A DNA stretch of 64,000 bases, taken from positions 1-64,000 of the forward strand of contig JAPZUA010000006.1 of NCBI GenBank assembly GCA_027532905.1, written 5' to 3'. Below are positions 56,893 through 59,226 of the stretch, one piece after another. The stretch comes from Magnetospirillum sp. Its GTDB lineage: Bacteria > Pseudomonadota > Alphaproteobacteria > CACIAM-22H2. Numbering within the stretch: the first letter of the stretch is position 1; each line of letters begins with the position of its first letter. The position numbers and the translations under genes were made by a program. The notes below the pieces were generated by a model. It saw only the letters and a program-made list of their open reading frames with translations. It did not search any database and was not told the origin of the DNA.

Positions 56893-57909
56893 CTAAGGCA
56901 CCACCGGCCGCTGCGGCGGCAAGGGGAGGCCGCGTGCTGCCATTTGAGTGCGCAACCGGTCGGGATAGTCGGTGATGATGCCGTCGACGCCGAGTGCGAG
57001 CATCGCGTCCATGTCGGCGGGTGTGTTCACGGTCCACGGGATCACGGCGAGGCCGAGGGTTTTGGCTTCGGCCATCGCCTCGGCCGAGAGGTTGCGGAAA
57101 AACGGCGACCAGATTTTGCCGCCGGCCGCGGCCACTAAGCGCGGCGTGGAATTGCCGTGGTTGGCGGCATCGAGCCCAGTCCAGGGCGACACGCCGCGCC
57201 CTTTGCCGACCGTATCGCTGCCGCTGCCGTCCGCGCGTTCGAAGGTGAGATGGACGCGCGCGATCTCAGGCGCTGTGCGCGCGACATGCGCGAGCGTGCG
57301 CCAATCGAAGCTTTGGATCGTCGTGCGCGAGGCGAGCCCCAAGCGGCGAATTTCGTCGATCAGCGTCTGCGCGAAGGTCTCCGGCGGCAAAGTTTCGTCG
57401 GCGGCGAGCGGCGAGATTTTGGTTTCGATATTGAAGCGCATATCGGCAGCGTTCGCGCGGGCCGCCAGTGCTGCTACCTCGGCGAGTGTTGGCATGCGTG
57501 CGCCGGGCTTGGGCGATTGCGTGGCGAACTGCCGCGCATAGTCCGTACCCGGCTTAATGGCGCCCAAATCGAAGCGCTGCAAGGCGGCGAGCGGCAAGTC
57601 GCGCAAGCGCGGGGCGGGGGTTGCAAGCCAAGCGCCGTCGGCGTCTTTCGTGATGTCCGGATTGAGGCGGCGGTCATGCGCCACGACGACCGCCCCGTCG
57701 GCCGAAATGCCGACATCGAATTCGAGCGTGGAAACGCCGATGCCAAGGGCGGTTGCAAAAGCCGGCAGCGTGTTTTCGGGGGCGAGGCCGCGCGCGCCGC
57801 GATGGCCCTGCAGGTCGAAGGCGGCAGTGGGGCCTGCGATCAGTAAGGCGGCGGCGACCGCCATCAAAGCGATAGTCGAAACACGGCGACGGCAGGGCAA
57901 TGGCGGCAT
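56893..57909 (-). CDS. glpQ: Glycerophosphodiester phosphodiesterase (exported)
   Basis: A 338-aa GDPD enzyme that cleaves glycerophosphodiesters. The signal peptide ends GPTAAF at about residue 31. The catalytic start LQGHRGARGLAPENT (His and Arg), EFDVGISADGAVVVAHD (metal ligands) and the second half IPWTVNTPADMDAMLALGVDGIITDYPD are present, so it is full length. It lies divergent to the galU region; its promoter must be in the AT-rich spacer after 57910. Confidence 0.93.
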   Translation of the reverse strand: MPPLPCRRRVSTIALMAVAAALLIAGPTAAFDLQGHRGARGLAPENTLPAFATALGIGVSTLEFDVGISADGAVVVAHDRRLNPDITKDADGAWLATPAPRLRDLPLAALQRFDLGAIKPGTDYARQFATQSPKPGARMPTLAEVAALAARANAADMRFNIETKISPLAADETLPPETFAQTLIDEIRRLGLASRTTIQSFDWRTLAHVARTAPEIARVHLTFERADGSGSDTVGKGRGVSPWTGLDAANHGNSTPRLVAAAGGKIWSPFFRNLSAEAMAEAKTLGLAVIPWTVNTPADMDAMLALGVDGIITDYPDRLRTQMAARGLPLPPQRPVVP

Positions 57910-57988
57910 CGGTACATTCCGGGGGTCTGGGTTCGATCGGCGCCCACGGATTCTACACGGTCGCAGTGACGCTTTTTCTTCGGGGTAT

Positions 57989-58017
57989 TTGTTCTATATA
58001 TGTTAATAATCTTATAT
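57989..58017 (+). promoter_or_regulatory. Candidate promoter toward galU
   Basis: TTGTTC (57989-57994) and TTATAT (58012-58017) with a 17-nt spacer lie in an AT-rich island (about 57970-58035). The expected start near 58024 is 29 nt before a strong AAAGGAGG at 58053-58060. The same island offers -10-like sequences toward glpQ. The stretch 57910-58356 has no independent recognised gene. Confidence 0.5.
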
Positions 58018-58065
58018 AGCTTAAATTTCTGATTTCGGGTAGTCTCTCCGCGAAAGGAGGCTCTC

Positions 58066-58356
58066 ATGGTACCGGTCTTGCGCAACCTCGATTTTTTACT
58101 GCGAGTTTGGGGTGAAACAACGCTAAATCAGAGGCTTAGACTCGAAAACGTCGCGCCTATGTCGCGTCCACGTCGCGTGGGCGCTGCGCCGATGTCGCGT
58201 CCATGTCGCGCAGATGTCGCACGGCCGCGTTTTGGGTGCCGCAGGGTCAACTTGCGGGGCGGGCGTGGCTATGGCATTAGCGCCACGGGCATGAAGGCGT
58301 GGGCTTGCGCGTTCTCTGCCGCAACCCCTCTGGCACTGTTTCAGGAATCACGTTTC
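58066..58356 (+). other. In-frame 97-codon extension upstream of galU
   Basis: An ATG at 58066 has an excellent AAAGGAGG site 5 nt before it. The frame is open for 97 codons and continues into galU. The predicted peptide MVPVLRNLDFLLRVWGET... is basic and resembles no known GalU N-terminus. It contains two 11-residue units starting MSRP, translated from the 11-bp array. It could be an unusual extension, a leader read through to galU, or chance. Confidence 0.4.
58150..58226 (+). repeat. Seven-unit 11-bp tandem array (GTCGCG) before galU
   Basis: GTCGCG occurs at 58150, 58161, 58172, 58194 and 58205, with GTCGCA at 58216 and a degenerate GCTGCG at 58183. The spacing is exactly 11 bp throughout, with CC(A/T)-like bases between. 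One unit equals about one helical turn, which would place repeated sites on one face of DNA. Confidence 0.8.
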
Positions 58357-59226
58357 ATGATGCGCCGCGTTCGCAAAGCGATCTTTCCCGTGGGCGGTCT
58401 TGGCACGCGGTTTCTGCCCGCGACCAAGGCGATGCCCAAAGAGATGCTGCCCGTCGTCGACACGCCGCTGATCCAGTATGCGGTCGAAGAAGCGCGGGCC
58501 GCCGGCATTGAGGAATTCATCTTCGTCACCGGGCGCGGCAAGACCACGATCGAAGACCATTTCGACCATTCCTACGAACTCGAACATACGCTCGAAGCGC
58601 GCGGCAAAACCGCCGAACTCGAAGCGCTGCGCGCCTGGCTGCCGCCGGCCGGCGACGTTGCCTACACGCGCCAGCAAGTGCCGCTGGGTTTGGGCCATGC
58701 GGTGTGGTGTGCCCGCGATCTCGTCGGCGACGAGCCGTTTGCCGTTTTGCTCGCCGACGATTTGATCTTGGCCAAGACGCCTGCACTCAAGCAAATGTGC
58801 GATATCTATCCCGAAGTGCGCGGCAACATGGTTGCGGTGATGGACGTGCCGAAGGCGCATACGCAGCGCTACGGCATTCTGTCGCCCGGCCGCGACGACG
58901 GGCGGCTCGTGCAGGTGCGCGGCCTCGTCGAAAAGCCGAAGGCCGAAGAAGCGCCGTCCACGCTCGCCGTGATCGGCCGCTACATTCTCGAGCCCGCCGT
59001 GTTTGCCCATCTCGACAAGAAGTCCAAAGGGGCAGGCGGCGAAATCCAACTCACGGATTCGCTGGTGCCCATGATCGGCACGAGCCCGTTCCACGGCTAT
59101 CGCTTCGAAGGCCAGCGCTTCGATTGCGGCGACAAAATCGGCTTTTTCGAAGCCCAGATCGCGTTTGCGCTGGCGCGCGCCGATCTGGGGCCGGCGGCGC
59201 AAGCCGTCATCAAGCGCTACACTTAA
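58357..59226 (+). CDS. galU: UTP-glucose-1-phosphate uridylyltransferase
   Basis: GalU, 289 aa from this start, makes UDP-glucose for exopolysaccharide and envelope sugars. It has AIFPVGGLGTRFLPATKAMPKEML at its N-terminus (shown here as GGLGTRFLPATKAMP), QVPLGLGHAVWCA and VEKPKAEEAPS. The ATG at 58357 fits family length; AGGAA lies 10 nt upstream. A longer start at 58066 adds 97 residues. ugd follows 12 nt later. Confidence 0.95.
   Translation: MMRRVRKAIFPVGGLGTRFLPATKAMPKEMLPVVDTPLIQYAVEEARAAGIEEFIFVTGRGKTTIEDHFDHSYELEHTLEARGKTAELEALRAWLPPAGDVAYTRQQVPLGLGHAVWCARDLVGDEPFAVLLADDLILAKTPALKQMCDIYPEVRGNMVAVMDVPKAHTQRYGILSPGRDDGRLVQVRGLVEKPKAEEAPSTLAVIGRYILEPAVFAHLDKKSKGAGGEIQLTDSLVPMIGTSPFHGYRFEGQRFDCGDKIGFFEAQIAFALARADLGPAAQAVIKRYT

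Follow-up and report, generated by a model that had tools for sequence, protein, structure and literature searches.

The window analysed here (64,000 nucleotides of Magnetospirillum sp., positions 1 to 64,000 of contig JAPZUA010000006.1) carries an array of seven 11-bp units upstream of galU. This array is one of 13 of its family in the genome, and related arrays are kept beside the same genes in congeners. Computation gave the array family, its phasing, its conservation, the anatomy of its leaders, its co-occurrence with a helix-turn-helix (HTH) protein, P0001, and the behaviour of repeat words in other genomes. With moderate confidence, we interpret the arrays as cooperative P0001 sites, mostly placed where a small non-coding transcription unit ends; there they would act as a polar roadblock or terminator. 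The parts of the galU locus are the following:

57989 to 58019, forward strand: promoter-like TTGTTC-N18-TATATAG, from sequence reading a candidate promoter of the small unit that ends in the galU array.
58052 to 58068, forward strand: GAAAGGAGG plus ATG, a Shine-Dalgarno-like leader in place of the hairpin-boxA leader of most other units.
58126 to 58138, forward strand: AATCAGAGGCTTA motif, 11 bp before the galU array, conserved before arrays at a helix-phased distance.
58144 to 58149, forward strand: A-tract GAAAAC, directly 5' of the first unit; an A-tract is kept there before most arrays.
58150 to 58226, forward strand: class A array, seven 11-bp units with consensus GTCGCG-YCYAT, predicted to be cooperative DNA sites of P0001.
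58247 to 58285, forward strand: galU-proximal conserved block (CAACTTGCGGGGCGGGCGTGGCTATGGCATTAGCGCC region), 3' of the array, probably galU's own promoter (candidate).
58357 to 59226, forward strand: galU, UTP-glucose-1-phosphate uridylyltransferase (TIGR01099 above cutoff).

The seven-unit array that an earlier note had described before galU was borne out by reading of the sequence and by Tandem Repeats Finder, which independently reported positions 58150-58220 with a period of 11, 6.5 copies and a score of 51. The units start at 58150 (GTCGCGCCTAT), 58161 (GTCGCGTCCAC), 58172 (GTCGCGTGGGC), 58183 (GCTGCGCCGAT), 58194 (GTCGCGTCCAT), 58205 (GTCGCGCAGAT) and 58216 (GTCGCACGGCC); as read from the sequence, the spacing is exactly 11 bp throughout and the fourth unit is degenerate. 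The same note had placed the array between a candidate promoter and galU. A promoter-like stretch does exist upstream (57989 to 58019), part of which is conserved by eye in three of four genomes, but the probable promoter of galU itself sits 3' of the array. An open frame of 386 codons (58066-59226) with a Shine-Dalgarno-like start runs in frame across the array into galU. This read-through is probably a coincidence. In one congener (L251), the leader frame, as read, ends before the array.

Across the 4.26 Mb of the genome, the pattern GTCGCG-N5-GTCGCG matched 40 times and a reversed control pattern 3 times; most of the 40 matches belong to 13 arrays. These counts, together with the 13 arrays recovered by a family model, show that the galU array is not a product of chance. 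The model used sequence only, covered the array and 24 nt upstream, and was built from the 13 arrays including that of galU. In this genome it matched 13 arrays; three congeners gave 14, 14, and 19. Of the seven other congeners, five gave no match and two a single weak one (E about 4e-4 and 6e-4). The 62 matches were reduced to 58 arrays by dropping G003:C188 (at a contig end), G004:C7:75060, and the weak matches of G005 and G009. The search for further GTCGCG arrays with 11-bp spacing that the earlier note had proposed was positive, with 13 arrays here, and congeners keep arrays beside the same genes. When loci were matched through the proteins that flank them, orthologues of 12 arrays turned up in each of the three array-rich congeners; the thirteenth, the adenylate-cyclase-like array, has them in two.

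Array length is narrowly distributed: among the 58 arrays, one has 5 units, 21 have 6, 28 have 7, seven have 8 and one has 9 (6 or 7 in 49). Over 392 units the core letters are nearly invariant (G1 in 372, G4 in 384, C5 in 390), and gaps between units measure 11 bp in 250 cases, 22 bp in 28, 33 bp in 4 and 9 bp in 1. At L029 and L260 the array start was placed too early, by one or two units. An A stands at position -4 in 53 of the 58 arrays as anchored, the galU array being anchored one unit early in this count. These data bear on the earlier suggestion that the repeat changes in length and thereby switches expression, that is, a hypervariable repeat giving phase-variable galU expression. The array is indeed a tandem repeat, but its units are imperfect, which makes slippage unlikely, and the near-identical units and variable copy number of phase-variable tandem repeats were not found in these arrays. 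Only 5 to 9 units were counted over 58 arrays in four genomes, the galU arrays stay at 6 or 7 units across the four species (the window array counted as 7), and the promoter-like block of galU lies downstream of the array. We therefore set aside length change as an expression switch and consider phase variation of galU extremely unlikely.

The arrays occupy a characteristic position. The next gene is convergent in 46 of the 58; the distance between its stop and the array is then -5 to 100 bp, with a median of 29 bp. This is a lower count, as the gene caller missed a convergent gene at the L275 array, and the distances are approximate since genes were called with a home-made codon-score caller. 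Neighbours of the arrays include rpoD, an rpoH-type sigma factor, a PhoR-like kinase, PhaZ, a HIT protein, leuA, and galU; gene names beyond these are readings of the sequence. At galU and leuA the next gene reads in the same direction as the array. Close to that gene lies a strongly conserved, promoter-like block, and the array stands 113-236 bp 5' of the start codon, upstream of that block. This arrangement would suit ordinary operators, with P0001 as a classical repressor or activator of neighbouring promoters including those of galU and leuA, but a convergent next gene whose 3' end faces the array, the case in 46 of 58, argues against it, and we regard this explanation as unlikely. The galU array lies, probably, upstream of galU's own candidate promoter, as judged from the conserved block. 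This block was seen in the four array-bearing genomes, and a related one occurs in G005, G009, and G010 with no array there; G006 likewise has no array before galU. In other congeners, then, galU does without an array. The link to exopolysaccharide precursors drawn earlier is not supported, as 12 of the 13 arrays adjoin other genes and the promoter-like block of galU is kept in array-less genomes.

Most arrays are preceded by a leader of ribosomal RNA type. The boxA sequence GTGCTGTTTGACAnnGTGAATA, searched on the array's own strand only, lies 5' of 41 of the 58 arrays by strict match and 47 by relaxed match. The genome's own 16S-23S spacer (L295) carries GCTGTTTGACATGGTGAA, an rRNA-type boxA that is also found before class A arrays and before a second set of elements (class B), and the 16S leader of a congener contains the same boxA type. 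The galU unit itself lacks an rRNA-type boxA. Across the genome there are 26 boxA sites against 0 for the reversed control; by reading, 8 precede class A arrays, 1 belongs to rRNA, and 17 precede class B elements. A stem-loop of varied sequence tends to end immediately 5' of boxA. In 112 elements, many of them orthologues, the mean hairpin score was 16.2 against 12.1 (sd 3.0) after shuffling, and 21% of the individual hairpins exceeded the 95th percentile. Two groups have no boxA, namely the galU group with its Shine-Dalgarno-like leader and a group in which the HTH gene itself takes the leader's place. Of the four members of a third group, three carry a leader that has diverged.

The class B elements occupy 17 loci of this genome (within L280-L304, e.g., L296 from 1501) and share the boxA leader. 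Their words are mostly GTCGCC or GTAACC at about 10-nt spacing. For these elements 68 boxA sites were read and 65 used after removal of rRNA leaders and duplicates, two of the 65 coming from G003. Where the next gene is convergent, the last word lies a median of 4.5 nt from its stop, and at most 40 nt in 40 of 46 cases. In 12 of the 65 elements the words form inverted pairs.

Between leader and array lies the motif TCAAnnGCTTR. Its distance to the array, obtained for 54 arrays, was 11 bp in 32, 12 in two, 21 in ten, 22, 31, and 32 in one each, 33 in three and 42 in two; the remaining values of -1 and 0 arise because the array start was set early. Distances at 11, 21-22, 31-33, and 42 bp fit phasing by the DNA helix. 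Phase concentration has a broad peak, with 0.96 at 10.5-10.75 bp flanked by 0.93 at 10 bp and 0.94 at 11 bp; these are descriptive values taken without a null model. Part of the phasing may come from gain and loss of units, but the distance of 21 bp is not a multiple of 11. The idea that the one-turn spacing reflects stacked sites for a regulator was thus strengthened as a prediction, both by these distances and by an HTH protein that co-occurs with the arrays and whose own gene carries one.

This protein, P0001, has 178 aa with HTH_7 and HTH_23 matches above cutoff, and an array starts 24 nt past its stop. Orthologues (68-100% identity) are present in four of four class A-rich genomes of the genus and in none of seven others, a contrast from a single clade whose members are not independent. 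A second, more distant HTH gene occurs in the same four genomes and in G006, G007, and G008. These seven are all the genomes of the genus that are rich in boxA units, and the stop of this gene is followed by an array in none of them. In this genome it is L419 (G000:C1, around 704959-705267), directly 5' of an S-methyl-5'-thioadenosine phosphorylase-like gene. By protein search neither HTH gene was found in G001, G005, G009, or G010. G001 and G005 each have one boxA match, which lies in an rRNA spacer, and in G001 a profile search added a weak HTH match (6e-5). Searched against PDB profiles, P0001 had 8vd6_A as its best match (E 2.4e-8, no single stretch passing), followed by a resolvase-type protein at 0.0076, and we take these matches as general HTH likeness. 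A terminase small subunit was considered for P0001 and rejected, as its PHROG match (E 0.016) falls below a safe threshold and no NCBIfam match exceeded the cutoff. The pairing of P0001 with the class A arrays is well supported, and P0001 is likely to be a sequence-specific DNA-binding protein. The association also bears on whether the arrays are a selfish, MITE-like dispersed repeat devoid of host function. They are multi-copy, intergenic, and mostly near gene ends, as such a repeat would be, but the set is tied to one protein and its copies keep orthologous positions and a similar architecture across four species, so we give this origin very little probability.

Beyond the genus, HTH profile matches were found in 13 of 387 Alphaproteobacteria. 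We scored 37 HTH loci, 11 from the genus and 26 of 33 from elsewhere, leaving out L457 (G001). In 12 of the 37 genes an array of 10- or 11-bp period lies at most 220 bp past the stop and scores above all 229 control gene ends, the weakest (L427) marginally, with 32 against a control maximum of 31. P0001 and its orthologues make up four of the 12; the other 25 genes have no post-stop array above all controls. The post-stop words vary between HTH genes, even among paralogues of one genome. When such words were used as queries, CATAGG, already known from one dispersed G109 element, gave 72 matches in about ten G109 arrays (source included) and 0 in G201, G278, G403, G136, and G000, the genome studied here. 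ACGAACC gave 60 matches in about eight G403 arrays (source included), 48 in the congener G201, and 0 in G109, G278, G136, and G000. Reversed controls of both words all gave 0.

Leaders were sought in these genomes as well. Six of seven dispersed G109 arrays have a boxA-like stretch under a loose pattern, and in five a TCA..TTA motif, similar to TCAAnnGCTTR, stands at exactly -32; among the G403 and G201 arrays that were read, none had an evident boxA in front. Nine genomes with HTH matches had no match to the boxA pattern (G067, G111, G176, G225, G256, G278, G357, G384, and G403), perhaps as a consequence of the narrow pattern, and the single match in G201 lies inside apparent coding DNA. Conversely, in G013, G136, G221, and G377 the boxA pattern matched at several sites, with other words, and no HTH-family match was obtained. 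The boxA-led words are ATGAACCCCATGCACCCATC in G136 (L395-L403), GCAGACCCGACGCAGACAGAATC in G377 (L404-L408), and GTATCTCAACCTATC in G013 (L409-L410), and the boxA-led units of G136 often have an inverted repeat between two word copies.

Binding by P0001, its cooperativity, transcription of the units, the roadblock, and any role of the RNA are what we infer from this pattern. In the mechanism we propose, each array would be a run of phased operator half-sites for P0001, which is encoded elsewhere in the genome and would bind cooperatively with one subunit per helical turn, and the TCAAnnGCTTR motif would anchor the protein one or more turns upstream. Each array would form the 3' end of a short unit made of promoter, usually a hairpin and boxA leader, spacer, motif, and array, with a Shine-Dalgarno-like leader at galU and the HTH gene itself in one group as putative variants. 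P0001 seated on the array would be a polar roadblock halting RNA polymerase and so shielding the 3' end or promoter of the next gene; at the HTH gene, the array would act on that gene's own transcript. A polar roadblock or terminator is suggested because the arrays end the presumed units, in one orientation, just before the 3' end or promoter of another gene. Polymerase modified at boxA is poorly stopped by Rho, which would explain a special stop signal at these units. The same property counts against the roadblock reading, as a boxA leader should make polymerase harder to stop.

The sense orientation of the arrays relative to boxA means that recognition could take place in RNA. Transcribed GUCGCG words would then be the target of the HTH protein, or of some other protein that binds RNA, with the unit serving as a sponge or decoy RNA. 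Arrays 3' of boxA on the same strand (47 of 58) and hairpins ending just before boxA agree with recognition in RNA, but the constant 11-bp spacing and the multi-turn motif distances fit a double helix, class B words stand as inverted pairs in 12 of 65 elements, and HTH folds usually bind DNA. Nor do the arrays show much RNA structure beyond unit order: against unit-order shuffles the mean z was -0.37 forward and -0.26 reverse (58 arrays), and against dinucleotide shuffles -0.84 and -0.56 (13 arrays, averaged by hand), all weak. On this evidence an RNA-level system is improbable. Alternatively, a pyrimidine-C step every 11 nt might make the array a loading site for Rho that terminates the boxA unit, and a YC step is present in 360 of 392 units on the sense strand against 213 of 392 on the other. 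Yet the arrays are not the C-rich, G-poor stretches expected of such sites (G outnumbers C in them, C/G 0.82), their most constant letters are G1, G4, and C5 and not YC, and the words change between lineages along with the HTH protein, all of which make Rho loading highly unlikely.

Further searches placed the arrays in no catalogued family. In Rfam, positions 57900-58400 of the window had no match up to E 1, and 10 array loci and 18 boxA loci returned only rRNA, tRNA, and two sub-threshold matches. A CRISPR array was considered and rejected on the 11-bp period and the restricted 5-nt linkers; the 10 array loci gave one sub-threshold CRISPR-repeat match. The array had no match in a phage collection, and among plasmids three short matches were noted, from Azospirillum (L035, L036) and Bradyrhizobium (L037), which are TGTCGCG arrays of about 11-bp spacing with no annotated feature beneath. 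When genome contigs and viral contigs (44 viral stretches) were scanned with the GTCGCG pattern, a minority of the matches listed belonged to the same family and the rest look like other GTCGCG repeats. GTCGCG repeats at 11-bp spacing in Sphingomonas (L074, L075, L110), Rubrivivax (L085), and Paraburkholderia (L109) may be unrelated or analogous. One peptide pattern for relatives of the HTH protein returned 16 stretches of viral contigs, none of which was confirmed. We did not find such arrays or units described in the literature covered, most subscription journals being outside its scope.

Several known systems share parts of this arrangement. In ParR-parC of plasmid R1 and in plasmid iterons, arrays are bound by the product of a neighbouring gene. 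Shared features are direct repeats with a period close to one DNA turn and an array adjoining the gene of its presumed binder, whereas class A arrays are scattered along the chromosome at the ends of genes, the majority after a leader. With the small subunit of phage terminases P0001 has the HTH domain in common (the weak phrog_4102 match), but class A arrays lie on a bacterial chromosome. Eukaryotic Pol I roadblock terminators are arrays of TTF-I or Reb1 sites. They resemble our proposal in its logic, a protein on sites that end an rRNA-like unit, although the proteins are unrelated and the roadblock action here is a proposed one. Pausing of Pol I at a roadblock protein has been described (PMC12366685). 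The elements boxB, boxA, and boxC are those of rRNA antitermination (PMC10250234). The leaders studied here carry a boxA of the type present in this genome's 16S-23S spacer, preceded by a hairpin, but they head more than 20 short non-rRNA units, many of which end in arrays of putative protein sites. Finally, the TAACTGA direct repeats of Beggiatoaceae, which lie mostly just 5' of start codons, are likewise short, abundant, and intergenic, but the abstract of that report mentions neither a boxA leader nor helical phase nor an HTH gene that co-occurs (PMC4679880). The components are of known kinds, and we could assign their combination to no known system.

As a more tentative proposal, the arrays may represent an undescribed genome-wide system, in which a fast-evolving HTH family would provide a sequence-specific polar terminator or insulator. 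Many members would have a 10-11-bp word of their own, present as an array right behind their gene and also scattered over the genome where rRNA-like, boxA-led non-coding units end. If this is true, some Alphaproteobacteria would carry tens of rRNA-like non-coding units per genome, many ending in arrays for a dedicated protein, and protein and word would change together between lineages. Such a system would be a protein-based way to end or insulate transcription and would explain many unannotated intergenic stretches, and its matched protein-word pairs would offer a natural series for the evolution of HTH specificity.
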